The notes below the pieces were generated by a model. It was not told the DNA's origin. It saw only the letters and a list, made by a program, of their open reading frames with translations, and ran no database searches. DNA of 64,000 bases. Source: Natronococcus sp. A-GB1. Its GTDB lineage: Archaea > Halobacteriota > Halobacteria > Halobacteriales > Natrialbaceae. Where the stretch lies: positions 62,001-126,000 of the forward strand of contig NZ_JARUKW010000004.1 in NCBI RefSeq assembly GCF_029688845.1. The letters run 5' to 3'. Positions 6,452 to 22,521 of the stretch are shown here, piece after piece (within the stretch, counting starts at the first letter, position 1; the number at the start of each line of letters is the position of its first letter). The translations under genes were made by a program, and so were the position numbers.

Positions 6452-7045
6452 ATGAGAGAGCTCGACGAGACGGACCTCGAGATCCTCGAGTTACTGGCGA
6501 CCGACGCCCGGCGGCCGTACAAGGAGATCGCCGATCGGGTCGACCTGACGCCGCCGGCGGTCTCGGATCGGATCTCCCGGCTCGAGAGCCAGGGGATCAT
6601 CCGGGGGTTTACGATCGACGTCGACCGCGAGCGACTTCACGGCGAGGTCTCGGTGCTGGTCGACCTCGAGCCCGCTCCCGAGGCGGTCGACGAGGTCTAC
6701 GCGGCCGCAGGCGAGCTCGAGGGCGTCGAGCGCGTCCTGGAGGGAGTGGACGGCCGCGTCCTCGTCCACGCAACGATTGCCGACGGTGACGTCCGCTCGT
6801 GGCTCGCTCGCGAGGTCGACCTCGCCTCGCTGTCGGGCTACGACGTCACGCTGCTCAACCGGTCGGCTCGCATCGCCGCGCTCTCGGCGACCGGGTTCGC
6901 CCTCGAGTGTGTCGTCTGCGGGAAGCAGGTCACCGGCGACGGTGTGACGGCAACGGTCGACGGCGAGATCAAGACGTTCTGCTGTTCTTCTTGCGAGGAT
7001 CGATACCTGAGTCGATACGAGTCCCACCGGGACGCCCTCGAGTGA
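6452..7045 (+). CDS. Lrp/AsnC-family regulator with C-terminal TRASH domain
   Basis: 197 residues. The N-terminal winged helix (DETDLEILELLATDARRPYK, then VDLTPPAVSDRISRLESQG) is of the Lrp/AsnC type. A RAM-like middle domain runs from about residue 60 to 140. The C-terminus has ECVVCGKQVTGDG and TFCCSSCEDRYL, a TRASH-type Cys cluster that binds metal in other archaeal Lrp-TRASH regulators. It lies directly upstream of leuA on the same strand. Whether it controls the leu/ilv genes or metal transport cannot be read from the sequence. Confidence 0.85.
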   Translation: MRELDETDLEILELLATDARRPYKEIADRVDLTPPAVSDRISRLESQGIIRGFTIDVDRERLHGEVSVLVDLEPAPEAVDEVYAAAGELEGVERVLEGVDGRVLVHATIADGDVRSWLAREVDLASLSGYDVTLLNRSARIAALSATGFALECVVCGKQVTGDGVTATVDGEIKTFCCSSCEDRYLSRYESHRDALE

Positions 7046-7486
7046 GGGTCCCGACTCTAAGCGATGGGGCGCTCGGATCCAGGTGAAGCTGCAACACGTA
7101 CGAATCCCCGTCGGTAACGGGTCGGTCCGTCCCGGGAGACTATTCTTCTCCTGATTTGTGTTTCGAAATATACTAACAACTGGACGATAGTCTAAATCCG
7201 TTCCGCGTGGTGGTTTCTTACTGACCGACCGTCCACCGGGAAGCGCGCGCCAGCCGAACCACGTTCTTTTCAAGCATGTTTGGGTGGATTGTAGGGGATC
7301 GAGCGAGGGATTTCGGAGTCGACTCGCGGATCGAGTAGTATGATAATAGGCTATCTGGTGGATAATAGGTCGTTGATGTCTTGCGGTTTTCTCCTCTCAG
7401 CGGAGTTCTGTGAGTACTGACACGTCGTCCCATCACGGGGGCAGCGTCAGGTTTATATACGACGTCGGTCCTCGGATTCGGATACA
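7046..7486. other. Intergenic region before leuA
   Basis: About 440 bases without a convincing gene. An AT-rich patch lies at 7141-7200 and the leuA TATA element at 7452-7459. Open frames here have no family features. Confidence 0.5.
7452..7459 (+). promoter_or_regulatory. TATA element of leuA
   Basis: TTTATATA, 28 nt before ATG 7487. It predicts a transcript beginning almost at that ATG, and therefore argues against translation from the GTG at 7410, which lies upstream of the promoter. Confidence 0.7.
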
Positions 7487-8714
7487 ATGTCTTCACAAGG
7501 CAACCCGACCTCTGACACCAGTCAGGGGGGTCGAGTTCTTCCAGGGCACGTTAGATTCCACTGACGAAATCGAGTCAGCACGTGTCTTCGATACGACGCT
7601 GCGGGACGGCGAACAGTCGCCCGGCACGTCGTTTTCCTACGACGACAAACGCGAGATCGCCGCCGTTCTGGACGAGATGGGTACCCACGTCATCGAGGCC
7701 GGGTTTCCCGTCAACTCCGAGGCCGAGTTCGAGGCGGTCAGGGATATCGCGTCCTCGACGTCGACGACCACCTGCGGGCTGGCCCGCGTCGTCGACGACG
7801 ACATCGAAGCCGCACTTGATTCCGGCGTCGAGATGGTGCACACGTTCGTCAGCACCAGCGACGTCCAGATCGAGGATTCAATGCACGCGACCCGGGAGGA
7901 CGTAGTACAGCGCGCCGTCGATTCCGTCGAACGGATTACGGAAGCGGGGGCGACGTGCATGTTCTCCCCGATGGACGCGACCCGGACGGACGAAGCGTTT
8001 CTGATCGACGTGATCGAGGCCGTCTCGGAGGCGGGAACGGACTGGATCAACATTCCGGACACCTGCGGCGTCGCCACGCCGAATCGGTTCCGGGTGATGA
8101 TCGAGAAGGTCTGTGCCCACACGGACGCGCGAGTCGACGTCCACACCCACGACGATTTCGGGCTGGCGACCGCCAACGCTCTGTCGGGGATCGAGGCGGG
8201 CGCCGACCAGGCGCAAGTCTCGGTCAACTCGATCGGCGAGCGGGCCGGCAACGCCGCCTACGAGGAGTTCGTGATGGCCGTCGAATCGGTCTACCAGTGC
8301 GATACGGGTATCGACACGACCCGTATCATGGAGCTCTCGGAGATCGTCGAGGAGAAGAGTTCGATCGAAACGCCGGGGAACAAGCCCGTCGTCGGCGACA
8401 ACGCTTTCTCCCACGAGAGCGGCATCCACGCCGCGGGCGTCATCGAGAACTCGGACACCTTCGAACCCGGCGTCATGACCCCCGAAATGGTCGGCGCGAC
8501 GCGCCGACTGGTCATGGGGAAACACACCGGGACCCACTCGGTCCGCGAACGCCTCGAGGAGCGCGGGTACGTGCCCACCGACGACGAGGTGCGAACGGTA
8601 ACGCGCCGCGTCAAGGACTATGGCGCCGAGAAGCGCCGCATCACGGTCGAGGACTTAGAGCGGTTCGCCAAGGAGGCTGGCGTCGAGCGCCAGCGAGAGG
8701 AGGTGCAGATCTGA
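7487..8714 (+). CDS. leuA: 2-isopropylmalate synthase / citramalate synthase, apparent frameshift near start
   Basis: Condenses acetyl-CoA with a 2-oxo acid, the first step of leucine (LeuA) or citramalate (CimA) synthesis. Motifs include VFDTTLRDGEQSPG, HVIEAGFPVNS, VHTHDDFGLATANAL and NSIGERAGNAAYEE, the HMGL-like fold with its metal-binding His pair. The promoter and ATG at 7487 open a frame that ends after 25 codons. The enzyme frame is reached only if one G is dropped from the G6 run at 7525-7530, which gives SQGVEFFQGTLDS and a 408-residue protein. The alternative GTG at 7410 keeps the frame but lies before the promoter. LeuA versus CimA is uncertain; the neighbouring leuCDB genes serve both pathways. 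Confidence 0.88.
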
Positions 8715-8795
8715 GGGATGGCTCCCTCGTTTGCCACCGGCCGGGAGCCCCGGCTATCGCGCCGTCGTTCCCGCCAGCGTTGCCCGGGACGAAAC

Positions 8796-8802
8796 TATTA
8801 TA
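8796..8802 (+). promoter_or_regulatory. TATA element of the ilvB leader
   Basis: TATTATA about 28-34 nt before ATG 8830, which places the transcript start at or just before the small leader ORF. The ilv-leu genes therefore probably have a promoter separate from leuA. Confidence 0.65.
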
Positions 8803-8829
8803 CTGGTTGCCCCGCCTACCAGTGGAGTA

Positions 8830-8916
8830 ATGACGGATCGCGCTCGACCATCGGTTCGCACTCGCGACACCGGCGGCAGCGCGCTTGCTCGCCTTCGTAT
8901 TGTAGGGGCCGACTAG
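8830..8916 (+). CDS. Putative leader peptide of the ilvBNC-leuCD operon
   Basis: A 28-codon ORF beginning at the predicted 5' end of the transcript. Its C-terminal half reads SALARLRIVGAD. The two Leu codons there are CTT, the Ile is ATT and the Val is GTA, all A/T-ending choices that contrast with the ATC, GTC, CTC and CTG codons dominating the following genes. A hairpin spans its last codons and the stop. These traits fit a ribosome-sensing leader peptide for branched-chain amino acids. This is inference; no homologue was checked. Confidence 0.5.
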   Translation: MTDRARPSVRTRDTGGSALARLRIVGAD

Positions 8917-8921
8917 CCCCT
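8904..8921 (+). promoter_or_regulatory. Attenuator-like hairpin over the leader stop codon
   Basis: AGGGGC (8904-8909) can pair with GCCCCT (8916-8921) across a 6-nt loop. The stem covers the last Val, Gly, Ala and Asp codons and the TAG stop. A pyrimidine-rich stretch follows (8921-8940). A ribosome stalled at the Leu/Ile/Val codons would sit on or beside the left arm. Confidence 0.45.
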
Positions 8922-9040
8922 CACCAACTCCTTCCTCGACCTCGACCCGTATCCGTCGCACCGACCACCGAGCGACCAGCAACTTACCAGATGACACCAG
9001 CAAGCGCACCGGACCGCCGAGAGGCGACAGGAGGTAATCG

Positions 9041-10855
9041 ATGAGCGAACGCGCACCACCGGTTACCGCGACCGAGGAACAGCACGACGACCAGGAGACG
9101 CAGGAGGAACCGGCGGAGACGACCCCGACCGAAGACGTCGAGCCGGCGACCGACGCCGAGCCGACCCCCGTCACGACGGGCGCCGAATCCGTCGTTCGCG
9201 CACTCGAGAACGCGGGCGTTGAGCACGCCTTCGGCGTGCAGGGCGGCGCGATCATGCCCGTCTACGACGCGCTGTACGACTCCGAGATCCACCACGTGAC
9301 GATGGCCCACGAGCAGGGGGCCTCTCACGCGGCCGACGCCTACGGCATCGTCTCCGGGAAGCCGGGGATCTGCCTGGCGACGTCGGGACCGGGCGCGACG
9401 AATCTCGTCACCGGGCTGGCCGACGCCGACATGGATTCGGATCCGGTCGTCGCACTGACCGGCCAGGTGCCGACGGAGTTCGTCGGCAACGACGCCTTCC
9501 AGGAGACCGACACCACCGGCGTCACGATGCCGGTCACGAAGACCAACACCTTCTCGAGCGAGCCCGACCGGGTCGGTACGGACGTCAGCGAGGCGTTCGC
9601 GCTCGCGAGCGAGGGTCGACCCGGTCCGACGCTGGTCGACCTGCCCAAGGACGTCACGAACGCCGAAACCGACCGCGAACCCGACGAGCCGCAGACGCCC
9701 GACACCTACGAGGTCCAGGAACGAGCGGACCCCGAGATCGTCGCGGCCGCAGCCGAACGCGTCGAGAACGCCAGCCGCCCGATCATGCTGCTGGGCGGCG
9801 GCGTGATCAAAGGCGACGCCGCCGAGGTCTGTCGCGAGTTCGCGATCGAACACGAGATCCCGGTCGTCACGACGATGCCCGGAACCGGCGCCTTCCCTGA
9901 AGACCACGAGCTCGCACTCGAGGGTGCGGGGATGCACGGTACCGGCTACGCCAACATGGCGATCACCCACTGCGATACGATGGTCGCCGTCGGCACCCGG
10001 TTCGACGACCGCCTGACGGGCGGTATCGAGACGTTCGCGCCCGACGCCGAGATCATCCACGTCGACATCGATCCTGCGGAGATATCGAAGAACATCCACG
10101 CGGACTATCCGCTGATCGGCGACGCCGGCACCGTCGTTTCCCAGCTGGCCGAGGCCGTCGACGAGTCGCCCCAGGCGACGAAGTGGCGGGCGCAGTGCCA
10201 GCAGTGGAAGTCCGACTACTCGATGGCCTACGACACGCCGGAAGACGAACCGGTCAAGCCGCAGTTCGTCGTCGAGGCCTTAGACGAGGCCACGAGCGAC
10301 CGAGCGGTCGTTACGACCGGCGTCGGCCAACATCAGATGTGGGCCTGGCAGTACTGGACCTACACCGAGCCCCGAACCTGGGTCTCGAGCCACGGTCTGG
10401 GCGCGATGGGCTACGGCCTCCCGGCGGCGATCGGCGCTCGCTTCGCGGCCGACGACGACCAGGAGGTCGTCTGCGTCGACGGCGACGGCTCGTTCCTGAT
10501 GACGCTGCAGGGACTGTCGGTCGCCGTCCGCGAGAACCTGGATATCACGGTCGCCGTGCTCAACAACGAGTATATCGGGATGGTCCGGCAGTGGCAGGAC
10601 GCCTTCTTCGACGGGCGCCACTCCGCCTCGGACTACGGCTGGATGCCCGAGTTCGACACGCTCGCCGAGGCGTTCGGCGCGGAAGGGTTTCGGATCGACG
10701 ACTACGACGAGGTCGCCGACACGATCGAGGCCGCGCTCGCCTACGACGGCCCCTCCGTGATCGACGTCCACATCGATCCGCAGGCGAACGTCTACCCGAT
10801 GGTCCCGAGCGGCGGCGACAACGGTCAGTTCGCACTGACGGAGGACCAGCTATGA
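9041..10855 (+). CDS. ilvB: Acetolactate synthase, large subunit
   Basis: ThDP-dependent catalytic subunit of acetohydroxyacid synthase, the first common step to valine, leucine and isoleucine. 604 residues. An acidic, Thr/Pro-rich extension of about 45 residues precedes the Pyr domain. The active-site Glu is in HEQGASHAADAYG, and the ThDP motif is GDGSF...NNEY near residue 485. A strong Shine-Dalgarno (AGGAGGT, 9031-9037) precedes the ATG, consistent with internal initiation on a transcript starting at the leader. A 17-codon frame (8991-9044) also overlaps its start by 4 bases. The next gene, ilvN, overlaps by 4 bases. Confidence 0.96.
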   Translation: MSERAPPVTATEEQHDDQETQEEPAETTPTEDVEPATDAEPTPVTTGAESVVRALENAGVEHAFGVQGGAIMPVYDALYDSEIHHVTMAHEQGASHAADAYGIVSGKPGICLATSGPGATNLVTGLADADMDSDPVVALTGQVPTEFVGNDAFQETDTTGVTMPVTKTNTFSSEPDRVGTDVSEAFALASEGRPGPTLVDLPKDVTNAETDREPDEPQTPDTYEVQERADPEIVAAAAERVENASRPIMLLGGGVIKGDAAEVCREFAIEHEIPVVTTMPGTGAFPEDHELALEGAGMHGTGYANMAITHCDTMVAVGTRFDDRLTGGIETFAPDAEIIHVDIDPAEISKNIHADYPLIGDAGTVVSQLAEAVDESPQATKWRAQCQQWKSDYSMAYDTPEDEPVKPQFVVEALDEATSDRAVVTTGVGQHQMWAWQYWTYTEPRTWVSSHGLGAMGYGLPAAIGARFAADDDQEVVCVDGDGSFLMTLQGLSVAVRENLDITVAVLNNEYIGMVRQWQDAFFDGRHSASDYGWMPEFDTLAEAFGAEGFRIDDYDEVADTIEAALAYDGPSVIDVHIDPQANVYPMVPSGGDNGQFALTEDQL

Positions 10856-11520
10856 CACGAGAGCAGGGCCTCGACGGACCCGCTCCCGAGGAGCGACCGT
10901 CGCCTGCGGGTCGGCGAAACAAACAGGGGATCCGCATCGACCCCGAAGTCGAGGCGAAACACGAACCTCGACGGACCGTCATCTCGGCACTGGTCGAACA
11001 CGAACCCGGCGTGCTCGCCGAAGCCTCGGGACTGTTCTCGAGGCGGCAGTTCAACATCGAGAGTCTCACCGTGGGCCCGACCGACGACGAGGATCGCGCG
11101 CGGATCACCCTCGTCGTCGAGGAGCCCGATCCGGGGATCGACCAGATCAAAAAGCAGCTCCGAAAGCTGATTCCGGTGATCGCCGTGCGCGAACTCGAGC
11201 CCGACGCGATGCGCCGCGAGCTCGCCCTGGTGAAGGTCAACGCCGAACGACCCGACCAGGTCGCCGCCGTCGCGGACATGTACGACGCCAAGACCGTCGA
11301 CTCGAGCCCCGAGACGGCGACGTTCGAGATCACGGGCGCCCGCCAGAAGATCGAAGCCGCGATCGAGACGTTCTCCCAGTTCGGCATCCGCGAGATCGCC
11401 CGAACGGGGACGACCGCGCTCGCACGCGGTACCGACGACACCGCAGCACCCGCTCCGGCAGAATCGACCGCCAACGAGGCGAACAACACCCCCTACACCC
11501 AACCAGCAGACGATGACTGA
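10852..11520 (+). CDS. ilvN: Acetolactate synthase, small regulatory subunit
   Basis: Regulatory ACT-domain partner of IlvB that mediates feedback inhibition. 222 residues. After a polar N-terminal extension of about 40 residues, the ACT domain reads [21 protein letters not shown] and [14 protein letters not shown]. The C-terminal domain includes [11 protein letters not shown] and [15 protein letters not shown]. It overlaps ilvB by ATGA and ilvC by 8 bases, so the three are translationally coupled. Confidence 0.95.
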
Positions 11521-12565
11521 CGACGAATTCACCACCGAGATCTACTACGAATCGGACGCAGACGAATCGCAGCTCGACGACGTAACCGTCGCCGTCCTCG
11601 GCTACGGCAGCCAGGGCCACGCCCACGCGCTGAACCTCCACGACAGCGGGGTCGACGTGGTCGTCGGCCTCCGCGAAGACTCGTCCTCGCGCTCGGCCGT
11701 CGAAGCAGACGGACTCGAGGTCGTAACGCCCGTTGAGGCCGCATCGCGCGCACAGATCGTCTCGATGCTGGTCCCCGACACGGTCCAGCCCCACGTCTAC
11801 GAGCAGATCGAGGACGAACTCGAGGCCGGCGACACCCTCCAGTTCGCCCACGGCTTCAACATCCACTACAACCAGATCCAGCCCGCCGAGGACGTCGACG
11901 TGACGATGATCGCGCCGAAGTCCCCGGGCCACCTCGTGCGGCGCAACTACGAGAACGGCGAGGGGACGCCGGGGCTGCTCGCGGTCTATCAGGACGCCAC
12001 CGGCGACGCGAAAGAGCGCGCGCTCGCGTACTCGAAGGCGATCGGCTGCGCTCGTGCCGGCGTCGTCGAGACGTCGTTCCGCGAGGAGACCGAGACCGAC
12101 CTCTTCGGCGAACAGGCCGTCCTCTGTGGCGGTATCGCCGAGCTGATCAAGGTCGGCTACGAGACGCTCGTCGACGCGGGCTACAGCAAGGAGATGGCCT
12201 ACTTCGAGTGTCTCAACGAGATGAAGCTCATCGTCGACCTCATGTACGAGGACGGGCTCGGCGCGATGTGGGATTCGGTTTCGGACACCGCCGAGTACGG
12301 CGGTCTCACCCGCGGCGAAGTCGTCATCGACGATCAGGTTCGCGCGAACATGGAGGAGGTACTCGAGGAGGTCCAGAACGGCGAGTTCGCGACCGAGTGG
12401 GTCACCGAGAACCAGGCCAACCGCCCTGTCTACACCCAGCTCAACCAGGCCGAGAAGGACCACGAGATCGAGGAGGTCGGCGAGCGCCTCCGCGCGCTGT
12501 TCGCCTGGCAGGAAGAACAGGAGTCGGAAACCGAGGACGAGCGAGAGAAACTGCAAGCGGATTAG
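11513..12565 (+). CDS. ilvC: Ketol-acid reductoisomerase
   Basis: Converts acetolactate or acetohydroxybutyrate to the dihydroxy acid with NAD(P)H and Mg. 350 residues, class I length. The Rossmann motif [13 protein letters not shown] is at about residue 30. The C-terminal knotted domain has the Mg-binding region [15 protein letters not shown] and [14 protein letters not shown]. The short coenzyme-specificity loop after VVGLRE (DSSSRS) is Ser-rich; NADPH versus NADH preference cannot be settled by eye. The C-terminal tail is acidic. Confidence 0.96.
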
Positions 12566-12566
12566 A

Positions 12567-12866
12567 ATGAAACGAACGAACGACACCGAATCGGACGACG
12601 ACTCGATGCGTGCGGTCAGCCACACCAACCCCTACACCGGCGAGACGGCCGGACGGCTGTTCAGCCGCGGTCCGACCGTCGTGGCCGACGGCGGCCGGCG
12701 GAACGGAGCCGGCGACGAGAATCCAGCCGCGACGGATCCGTCGGCAGACGACACGATGAAGCGAGTCGATCACACGCCGCCAGAGGGCGCCGACGACGCG
12801 AACGACGTCTTCGAGCGGGGCAACGAACACGGCCGCGACGACGAGCGGGGAGCAACCGACGTATGA
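12567..12866 (+). CDS. Small uncharacterised protein embedded in the ilv-leu operon
   Basis: 99 residues, polar and low-complexity. It contains two copies of a short motif: MRAVSHTNP...FSRG (from residue 14) and MKRVDHTPP...FERG (from residue 64). It starts one base after the ilvC stop and overlaps leuC by ATGA, so it is translated as part of the operon. From memory it resembles other haloarchaeal proteins found in this gene position. No catalytic motif, signal or membrane segment is visible and its function is unknown. Confidence 0.75.
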
Positions 12867-14290
12867 GCGAGGGCACGCTGTACGACAAGGTCTGGGACCG
12901 CCACAAGGTGACCACCCTACCGACCGGACAGGATCAGTTGTTCGTCGGCCTCCACCTCATCCACGAGGTCACCAGCCCGCAGGCCTTCGGCATGCTCCGC
13001 GAGCGGGACCTCGAGGTCGCCTATCCCGAATTAACGCACGCGACGGTCGATCACATCATCCCGACAGCAGATCAGTCCCGTCCCTACGACGAGGACGCCG
13101 CCGAGGAGATGATGAGCGAGCTCGAGGAGAACGTCCGCGAGGCAGGAATCGAGTTCTCGGACCCCAACAGCGGGGACCAGGGGATCGTCCACGTCGTCGG
13201 TCCGGAGCAGGGCCTGACCCAGCCCGGGAAGACGATCGTCTGTGGCGACTCCCACACCTCGACCCACGGCGCCTTCGGCGCGCTCGCCTTCGGTATCGGC
13301 ACCAGCCAGATCCGGGACGTGCTCGCGACGGGCACCCTGGCCTTCGAGAAGCAGAAGGTGCGAAAGATCGAAGTCGAGGGTGAACTCGGCGACGGCGTCG
13401 AAGCCAAGGACGTCATCCTCGAGATCATCCGCCGACTGGGTACCGAGGGCGGCGTCGGCTACGTCTACGAGTACGCCGGCTCCGCGATCGAGGACCTGGG
13501 GATGGAAGGCCGGATGTCGATCTGTAACATGTCGATCGAGGGCGGCGCCCGCGCGGGCTACGTCAACCCCGACGAGACCACCTACGAGTGGCTCGAGGAG
13601 ACCGACTACTTCCAGGAGAACCCGGAGAAGTTCGAGGAACTCAAACCGTACTGGGAGTCGATTCGATCGGACGACGACGCCGAATACGATGACGTCGTAA
13701 CGATCGACGCCGACGAGCTCGAGCCCGTCGTCACCTGGGGGACGACCCCGGGTCAGGGGATCGGGATCACCGAGCCGATTCCGGAACCGGAGTCGCTGCC
13801 GGCCGACAAGCAAGACACCGCACGACGCGCACAGGAACACATGCGCGTCGAGCCCGGCGAGACGATGGAGGGGTACAATATCGACGTCGCCTTCCTGGGC
13901 TCCTGTACCAACGCCCGCCTGCCCGACCTGCGTCGCGCGGCCCGGATCGTCGAGGGTCGAGAGGTCCACGACGACGTCCGCGCGCTCGTCGTCCCCGGTA
14001 GCCAGCGCGTCCAGAAGACCGCCGAGGAGGAGGGCCTGAAGGAGATCTTCGAGGAAGCCGGCTTCGAGTGGCGCAACGCCGGCTGCTCGATGTGTCTGGG
14101 CATGAACGAAGACCAGCTCGAGGGCGACGAGGCCTGTGCCTCCTCCTCGAACCGGAACTTCGTCGGTCGCCAAGGCAGCAAGGACGGCCGGACCGTCCTG
14201 ATGAACCCGCGGATGGTCGCCGCGGCGGCGATCACCGGGGAAGTAACCGATGTCCGTGAGCTGCCGGAAGCGGAGGTGACCGCCCAATGA
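12863..14290 (+). CDS. leuC: 3-isopropylmalate dehydratase, large subunit
   Basis: Aconitase-family subunit that isomerises isopropylmalate, probably together with LeuD (14287-14928). 475 residues. The [4Fe-4S] Cys ligands are in [12 protein letters not shown] and [11 protein letters not shown]. Other family phrases are [28 protein letters not shown] and [12 protein letters not shown]. It overlaps the small protein before it and leuD after it by 4 bases each. Homoaconitase or methylmalate activity cannot be excluded. Confidence 0.95.
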
Positions 14291-14928
14291 GCGGCACGGA
14301 CGACGTGGAGATCCCCGAGGTGGACTACGTCTCGGGCTCCGGCGTTCCGATCCGCGGCAACGACATCGACACCGACCAGATCATCCCGGCGCGCTTTATG
14401 AAGGTCGTCACCTTCGACGGGCTGGGCGAGTTCGCGTTCTTCGACCTCCGGTTCGACGAGGACGACGATCAGAAGGACCATCCGTTCAACGAGGAGCGGT
14501 TCCAGGATTCGTCCGTGATGGTGGTCAACTCGAACTTCGGCTGCGGCTCCTCGCGCGAACACGCTCCCCAGGCGCTGATGCGCTGGGGAATCGACGCGAT
14601 CATCGGCGAGAGCTTCGCCGAAATCTTCGCGGGCAACTGTCTCGCGCTCGGCATCCCGACCGTGACGGCCGACAACGAGACGATCCAGGCGCTTCAGGAC
14701 TGGGTCGACGAGAATCCCGACGGCGAACTCGAGATCGACGTCGAGACCGAGACGGTCTCCTACGGTAGTGAGACGATCGACGTCACCGTCGACGACGCCC
14801 AGCGCAAGGCCCTGGTCGACGGGGTCTGGGACACGACGGCGCTGATGAAGTCCAACGCGGGTGCGGTTCGGGACACCGCCCGCGAACTGCCGTACGTCGA
14901 GTCCGAAGCGATCCCCGAGGCCGAGTAG
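14287..14928 (+). CDS. leuD: 3-isopropylmalate dehydratase, small subunit
   Basis: Swivel-domain partner of LeuC. 213 residues. Family motifs: [16 protein letters not shown] near the N-terminus, [15 protein letters not shown] in the middle and [14 protein letters not shown]. It is the last gene before a terminator-like hairpin that overlaps its stop codon. Confidence 0.95.
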
Positions 14929-22447: not shown

Positions 22448-22521
22448 GCCGGTGTAGCTCAGACTGGCAGAGCGAATCCTTCGTAAGGATTAGGTCGAGG
22501 GTTCAAATCCCTCCACCGGCT
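22448..22521 (+). tRNA. tRNA-Thr (anticodon CGT)
   Basis: Complete cloverleaf: acceptor stem GCCGGTG/CACCGGC with discriminator T, D-arm GCTC...GAGC, anticodon stem AATCC/GGATT with loop TTCGTAA, and T-arm GAGGG TTCAAAT CCCTC. The anticodon CGT reads ACG (Thr). No intron and no encoded CCA. A T4 tract follows immediately. Confidence 0.95.

Follow-up and report, generated by a model that had tools for sequence, protein, structure and literature searches.

Can an archaeon sense the branched-chain amino acids through a ribosome on a short leader reading frame, and thereby control the genes that make them? The question is raised by the DNA in front of ilvB in Natronococcus sp. A-GB1, within a stretch of 64,000 nucleotides (nt) of contig NZ_JARUKW010000004.1 (positions 62,001 to 126,000), which we call the window. 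An earlier note on this DNA had described a 28-codon open reading frame (8830-8916), a hairpin over its last codons and its stop (8904-8921) and a second frame running into ilvB (8991-9044); all three lie where they had been placed, as does the ilvB start. The TATA element reads TATTATA (8796-8802), and the ilvB Shine-Dalgarno sequence AGGAGGT is at 9029-9035. The leader looks like a bacterial ribosome-sensing attenuator, a switch that is not established in archaea. Ribosome-sensing attenuation of branched-chain amino acid synthesis is its most likely function, and we think it probable that it is such an attenuator of the ilvBNC-leuCD genes. Comparison of many genomes shows a real element that is under selection and spread through the order.

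The leader reading frame and its conservation

The promoter of the leader transcript, as read from the sequence, has a B recognition element (BRE) and a TATA element in the order CGAAAC-TATTATA (8790-8802, + strand, as are all parts of the leader and the operon given below). The first upstream open reading frame, uORF1 (8830-8916), is translated as MTDRARPSVRTRDTGGSALARLRIVGAD* and closes with Ile(ATT)-Val(GTA)-Gly(GGG)-Ala-Asp-stop. CTT codons lie at 8884 and 8893, ATT at 8899, GTA at 8902 and the stop TAG at 8914, and codon conservation marks ATT GTA (8899-8904) as the candidate control codons. The Leu, Ile and Val codons had been called rare, and the usage table of 44 window genes, picked by codon-position GC, bears this out: ATT makes up 7.9% of Ile codons, GTA 3.7% of Val codons and CTT 5.6% of Leu codons. 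The uORF1 peptide has no Pfam match, and an Rfam scan of the window gave a tRNA at 22448-22521 as its sole match, with none for the leader at gathering score.

A DNA similarity search with the region, in 61 genomes (its own and 60 relatives), gave matches in 57, the match in genome G054 being just 25 bases long. By DNA similarity, without motif selection, 56 ilvB loci were taken (30 + 26) and the region 5′ of the IlvB core was inspected. The core [A/G]T[T/C]GTAGGGG[C/T] is present in 53 of these. The three exceptions are L044, whose genome is shared with L178 and which has Leu-Val(GTA), and L054 and L055 of family f9, which have none. Of 293 Halobacteriales genomes, 270 contain the pattern ATYGTAGGGGYN{0,12}CCCC, mostly with one match each, against 16 for the reversed-pattern control (counted from the table).

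Position in front of ilvB was checked for the fetched loci, which gave 147 distinct sites. The motif partly determined which sites are in this set, so that its own fixed letters cannot count as independent evidence there. It was reduced from 165 distinct motif sites in L001-L168 by leaving out 18 without an IlvB core downstream: five second copies, judged by their letters (L058, L061, L062, L063, L066), seven in which the palindrome already counted was matched on its reverse strand (L030, L043, L070, L073, L076, L079, L081) and six others (L077, L097, L124, L126, L157, L167). IlvB was also searched in 22 of the 23 pattern-negative genomes and in G317; the 23rd, G043, is that of L040, with GTC GTA. 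A close IlvB (57-76% identity) was found in 15 of these genomes, and the other eight gave homologues at 34% identity or less. By eye, variant leaders are present in ten of the 15 (L169, L170, L171, L172, L173, L174, L175, L177, L178, L179), and no leader was found in five (L176, L180-L183). GTA is retained in all ten. Control-codon variants that preserve the logic of the element include GTA GTA, GTC GTA and CTC GTA.

In a scan of named genomes, limited to the best 80 of at least 595 loci (7 haloarchaeal, 73 bacterial), the leader precedes ilvB in all seven haloarchaea: Natronolimnohabitans innermongolicus, Halovivax sp., Haladaptatus halobius, Halorubrum salsamenti, a Halobacteriales metagenome-assembled genome, Halolamina rubra and Natrialba asiatica. 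The bare ten-base core occurs within 800 nt upstream in one of the 73 bacterial loci, four of which have less than 450 nt upstream available. Outside the order, a stricter pattern matched 32 of 163 genomes of the phylum, versus about 70 for its reversed control, the ilvB leaders there being unread; spread beyond the order was rejected as a proposal, the three f18 loci fetched being ordinary terminator-like hairpins after other genes. Upstream of trpC and of hisG, each scanned in a simple way in 26 genomes, short ORFs turned up here and there, a few of them common within the window's genus and none noticed as shared beyond it. General use in amino acid operons was set aside on these scattered matches.

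Within the 147 sites, comparison shows a constrained reading frame. Counting from the Ile codon, an in-frame stop falls at codon 5 or 6 in 140 (TAG 98, TGA 21, TAA 21). The six codons before Ile are 43.3% Ile, Leu or Val in frame, versus 4.5% and 11.5% in the other two frames, and the share among earlier uORF1 codons is 12.7%. The Ile position is ATT in 110, ATC in 36 and Val (GTC) in one, so that the end is Ile-Val in 146 and Val-Val in the other, Val being fixed by the search pattern. GTA is likewise fixed by the pattern in this set, yet it is present in the 53 similarity-fetched loci and the ten variants. The conserved end reads Ile-Val(GTA)-Gly(GGG)-Ala/Val-(X)-stop. The earlier note had expected the peptide end to be conserved and had named a lack of conserved Leu, Ile and Val codons as a reason to abandon its idea. 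Such a lack is excluded for Ile and for Val (GTA); neither the Leu codons in themselves nor the final Asp are conserved. Each of its sequence-level predictions that was open to testing held: the ORF, the second frame and the hairpin recur across Halobacteriales, as do the terminal Ile and Val codons and the rare codons.

The promoter spacing is seen in the same comparison. Ten of the 147 sites lack an in-frame ATG 12-34 codons upstream (by eye, five of them have an ATG 37-38 codons upstream and two a GTG), and the promoter and folding counts use the remaining 137. A TTATA-like element (at least 5 of 6) precedes the uORF1 ATG in 128 of these 137 loci, exactly 32 nt before it in 79. In 105 of the 111 sequences having both a TATA element and an ATG, the first ATG after the TATA starts a frame that runs in register, with no stop, as far as the Ile codon; of the 147 sites, one had no ATG in this search. 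Archaeal promoters have a characteristic distance between TATA and start, and a TATA at 32 nt therefore places the likely transcript start at or very near the uORF1 ATG. The spacing implies a near-leaderless start, and it makes a start 3′ of 8916, named beforehand as an objection to the attenuator idea, unlikely. That the leader is translated is supported by its conserved frame, start spacing and stop.

The identity of the control codons can be set beside the tRNA genes. The 44 tRNA hits in the genome of A-GB1 include single genes for tRNA-Val with the anticodons TAC, GAC and CAC, one tRNA-Ile GAT, and one tRNA-Leu each for GAG, CAG, TAG, TAA and CAA. ATT and CTT share their tRNAs with ATC and CTC (anticodons GAT and GAG), and GTA is decoded by anticodon TAC. 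From the single tRNA-Val(TAC) gene and these decoding rules, GTA has its own tRNA. Since GTA is constant even where the stem has changed, the reason for its retention appears to lie at the level of the codon and not of the peptide or stem. We infer that valine is the main signal.

Hairpin, pyrimidine tract and second frame

The hairpin (8904-8921) pairs AGGGGC with GCCCCT around the loop CGACTA, which holds most of the stop codon; the predicted folding energy of 8899-8925 is -11.9 kcal/mol. Four of its G-C pairs are fixed by the search pattern. The inner stem pair is standard in 134 of the 147 sites, including a change from C-G to U-A in ten. Outer pairs reach into GTA and ATT to a varying extent, giving counted stems of 5 to 11 pairs, and there the 3′ arm varies and the coding arm, partly fixed by the pattern, is constant. 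Compensatory variants occur in L171, L036 and L046. In L171, which was not selected by the pattern, the stem is rebuilt by two-sided changes (GTAGGGCC..GGCCCTAC); L174, also not pattern-selected, has GTAGGGGC..GCTCCCTAC. In these two variants, then, the stem is kept by two-sided changes or a G-U pair.

Over the 137 leaders, the GGGG arm pairs with its local partner with a mean probability of 0.980, with upstream sequence at 0.000 and with downstream sequence at 0.018, and no competing antiterminator hairpin was found from these pairing probabilities. C-runs able to compete for the arm occur within uORF1 in 30 of 137 leaders versus 87.7 expected, a figure from mononucleotide shuffling that ignores codon structure and is indicative only.

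Directly 3′ of the hairpin lies a G-free, pyrimidine-rich tract (8921-8937), a candidate pause or termination site. In the 147 sites, G makes up 2-4% of positions +0 to +15 after CCCC versus 16-30% at +16 to +79, and T reaches its maximum, 44%, at +12 to +15. The archaeal factor FttA is described as favouring U-rich RNA (PMC11616081). For Haloferax volcanii, a study of 3′ ends describes intergenic ends with T stretches followed by C, hairpins no more than 10 nt before 503 3′-end sites, and a hairpin element that, in a reporter, stopped 59% of the transcripts in vivo (PMC7237163). The tract here could be a weak terminator or a pause site, not a classical U run.

The second frame, uORF2 (8991-9044), has 17 codons; its TGA overlaps the ilvB ATG (9041) as ATGA, and the ilvB Shine-Dalgarno (9029-9035) lies inside it. 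Reading from the first ATG past the hairpin leads, in 108 of the 147 loci, to a stop that overlaps the ilvB start, by 4 nt in 107. In the remainder, eight frames end near the ilvB start, 18 have their first ATG in the ilvB frame and 13 are otherwise arranged. The overlapping uORF2 lies 83-92 nt after the Ile codon in 78 of the 108. Its length ranges from 3 to 52 codons and its peptides look unrelated, so that position and frame, not the product, seem to be selected. The suggestion that this frame adds coupling to ilvB gains support from this conservation of position and frame, in counts uncorrected for relatedness among loci. A switch at the ilvB Shine-Dalgarno was considered and rejected. Masking the hairpin arm in 67 leaders (every second one) hardly alters predicted accessibility of the Shine-Dalgarno and start of ilvB, with a mean unpaired value of 0.399 vs 0.402, a median difference of -0.003, and shifts above 0.1 upward in seven leaders and downward in six.

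A proposed single-hairpin attenuator and its rivals

We propose the following sequence of events. The transcript would start no more than a few bases from the uORF1 ATG, giving a near-leaderless end on which a ribosome would load. When Val-tRNA, above all the GTA reader tRNA-Val(UAC), or Ile-tRNA is short, the ribosome would stall on the Ile-Val codons and mask the 5′ arm of the hairpin, which starts inside GTA; no hairpin would form, and polymerase would enter ilvB. Judged from the size of ribosome footprints, the entire 5′ arm would lie under a ribosome whose A site is at GTA. When amino acids are ample, the ribosome would finish at the stop inside the hairpin and leave, the hairpin would form, and polymerase would stop or pause in the pyrimidine tract some 12-16 nt downstream. 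The ribosome itself would act as the antiterminator, with no separate antiterminator hairpin. Where transcription goes on, ribosomes that terminate on uORF2 would reinitiate at ilvB. We infer from the anatomy that the leader is translated, that ribosomes stall on it, and that there is termination, coupling and a response to Val, Ile and Leu; the earlier proposal that stalling controls the hairpin and downstream expression fits this anatomy.

Several points weigh against this reading. The stop comes later in seven of the 147 sites (at codon 10 in five f1 loci, codon 8 in L052 and codon 31 in L069), and a stricter TATA search came back empty in 35. Since the stop codon sits inside the hairpin, a terminating ribosome would also mask the hairpin briefly, and the timing presumes polymerase pausing, which we assume. 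The tract is C/U-rich and has no U run, and TTTT occurs within 70 nt past the hairpin in just 45 of the 147 sites, whereas U-rich RNA is what FttA favours (PMC11616081). The Haloferax work scored hairpins lying no more than 10 nt from a 3′ end (PMC7237163), which is nearer than the T peak found here. Among the 16 small ORFs in 5′ untranslated regions of 150-250 nt that are described in a study of H. volcanii, none precedes ilvB, and two precede tRNA ligases, for Trp and Phe (PMC4983044). The distance from uORF1 to ilvB in the window, 211 nt, would fall within that range, and the presence of the leader in H. volcanii itself is unconfirmed.

Stalling or finishing on uORF1 might also steer ribosomes to uORF2 and on to ilvB, or act on mRNA stability, with transcription running on unstopped. 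Termination-reinitiation coupling does occur in haloarchaea, and the overlap of uORF2 with ilvB in 108 of 147 loci, with 78 at 83-92 nt from the Ile codon, makes leader translation seem to matter beyond uORF1. What argues the other way is that in the 67 leaders the predicted accessibility of the Shine-Dalgarno and start of ilvB hardly responds when the 5′ arm is masked as by a stalled ribosome, that the GGGG arm pairs downstream of its local partner with a mean probability of 0.018 only, and that the strict overlap is missing in 39 of 147 loci that retain uORF1. We therefore consider such post-transcriptional attenuation possible, though rather unlikely. Arrest by the nascent peptide is a different matter: the I-V-G-A end would bind the ribosome tunnel and sense free amino acid instead of tRNA charging, as TnaC does in sensing a free amino acid from within the tunnel. 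The last residues, I-V-G-A/V, are nearly fixed, though hairpin pairing alone needs no Ile, and this is what such an arrest peptide would lead one to expect. It is hard to reconcile with the retention of the GTA codon, beyond mere Val, even with an altered stem, with preceding residues that vary apart from their richness in Ile, Leu and Val, and with variant ends as different as FVGA*, LVGAL* and IRVRAAPAH*; we regard it as improbable.

A bound DNA operator or an RNA-protein site would make the ORF incidental, the palindrome TTGTAGGGGC..GCCCC(TACAA) being recognised by a regulator such as the Lrp/AsnC-type protein encoded at 6452-7045. In some genomes the element is indeed a palindrome, which makes the pattern match the reverse strand as well, and a gene for an AsnC-type helix-turn-helix (HTH)/TRASH protein is nearby. 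A binding site would hardly keep a frame open from a promoter-anchored ATG to any of three stops while its loop length varies, nor would it restrict Ile/Leu/Val enrichment to one frame; the outer pairs, moreover, vary in the 3′ arm and not in the coding arm, which is partly pattern-fixed. This explanation seems to us a little less credible still than peptide arrest. That the leader is a chance or annotation artefact of a GC-rich spacer has in its favour that GC-rich DNA commonly has short ORFs; it is refuted by the order-wide conservation, and nothing comparable was noticed before trpC or hisG, so that its probability is negligible.

Neighbouring genes and known systems

The leader stands in front of ilvB (9041-10855), the large subunit of acetolactate synthase (TIGR00118, 696.8 bits, cut-off 538.35). 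It is followed by ilvN, recognised from its translated sequence and not by a family search, ilvC (11513-12565; NF004017, 525.8 bits, cut-off 336), leuC (12863-14290; TIGR00170, 595.9 bits, cut-off 560.25) and leuD (14287-14928; TIGR00171, 134.9 bits, cut-off 116.25). Upstream of the leader is a leuA-like gene (7410-8714, +), whose top NCBIfam matches are 2-isopropylmalate synthase models, all below cut-off, and whose product matches HMGL-like and HCS_D2 only in Pfam, without the LeuA allosteric domain PF08502. The annotated leuA start (7410) seems too early: TTTATATA lies inside the gene at 7452-7459, and an ATG at 7487, out of the leuA frame, is at leaderless distance from it (window 7410-7515). 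Further upstream, 5′ of leuA, is the gene (6452-7045, +) for the AsnC/Lrp-type HTH protein with a C-terminal TRASH domain (PF24273), a possible additional regulator.

The form of LeuA appears to go with the leader. There are 105 leader loci with 600 nt or more of upstream sequence; in every one, LeuA ends 54-92 residues past a GKHTGxHSV-like motif, and the signature of the allosteric domain that was searched for was not found in the LeuA of any of these. PF08502 was likewise not matched in the four leader-bearing LeuA proteins scanned, including that of the window. The leaderless loci L180-L183 (families f11 and f9) have a LeuA with PF08502, with ilvB close behind. The association rests on two independent clades at most and is a lead; if true, gene-level feedback would seem to replace enzyme-level feedback in a LeuA without the allosteric domain. 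A derivation of the leader as a remnant of that domain, suggested by the resemblance to SGGSDAVANVYVGV, was discarded, since 19-30 of 173 background protein segments score equally high.

Second copies of the leader (uORF1 end IVGV* or IVGA*, with hairpin) are found in L058, L061, L062, L063 and L066, of genera g54 and g75, and precede not ilvB but a short ORF with a conserved MADVxHTPP..ANRVFERG-like motif; by eye, T-rich stretches follow the copy in some loci. A relative in the window, of 99 amino acids with two motif repeats (12567-12866, +), lies between ilvC and leuC; its stop overlaps the leuC start, and its product has no Pfam or NCBIfam match. The 27-residue HTPP/FERG motif occurs in 42 of 79 genomes of the order (E 0.01). 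Since this protein has its own leader copy elsewhere, a role in branched-chain amino acid synthesis is hinted at.

A 2021 paper states that no archaeal transcription attenuation or antitermination mechanism was known (PMC8448881). No title on an archaeal leader-peptide attenuator was among the matches listed in our literature search, which lay outside most subscription journals and bioRxiv preprints. A word search of a review of coupling found no mention of attenuation or leader peptides (PMC8116511), nor does the main text of a Haloferax ribosome-profiling paper mention them outside its reference list (PMC12482152). We lean slightly towards the proposal in its full form, namely the first archaeal ribosome-sensing attenuator, order-wide and minimal, with a single hairpin, the ribosome as antiterminator, valine (GTA, tRNA-Val(UAC)) as the main signal and the archaeal polymerase or FttA making the stop in the tract, in lineages whose LeuA lacks the allosteric domain. 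For translation-transcription coupling as a form of archaeal regulation, the element would be a defined, order-wide test case in tractable haloarchaea, with codons, hairpin and tract separately changeable.

Among the closest parallels is the ilvB-II motif, or ilvBNC attenuator, of Corynebacterium, in which a short uORF rich in Ile, Leu and Val codons lies before ilvBNC beside stem-loops, and in both cases codons for the products of the pathway are the proposed sensor (PMC10272879). As described there, in that bacterial system uridines come after the terminator, and an antiterminator stem can form as the alternative (PMC10272879). The haloarchaeal leader differs in having one hairpin over both the control and stop codons with no alternative stem seen, a C/U-rich tract, a near-leaderless start and a second uORF overlapping ilvB; the likeness described here is one of features. 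In the leu, ilvGMEDA and ilvBN attenuators of E. coli and Salmonella, the position of the ribosome on product codons selects the RNA structure, the leu leader has rare codons at the sensing site, and the defining parts are mutually exclusive hairpins and a U-run intrinsic terminator. Mutually exclusive hairpins were not found in the haloarchaeal leader, and a U run is not clear there. Leaderless short-ORF attenuators are known in mycobacteria, where the terminal codons sense cysteine and control the downstream operon in a Rho-linked manner. The haloarchaeal leader resembles these in being a near-leaderless short ORF with putative sensing codons at its end, in an archaeon and for other amino acids. 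Factor-dependent termination in archaea uses FttA/aCPSF1 (PMC11616081). If the proposal is true, control of amino acid operons by a sensing ribosome has arisen, or has survived, beyond the Bacteria, and works through archaeal termination.

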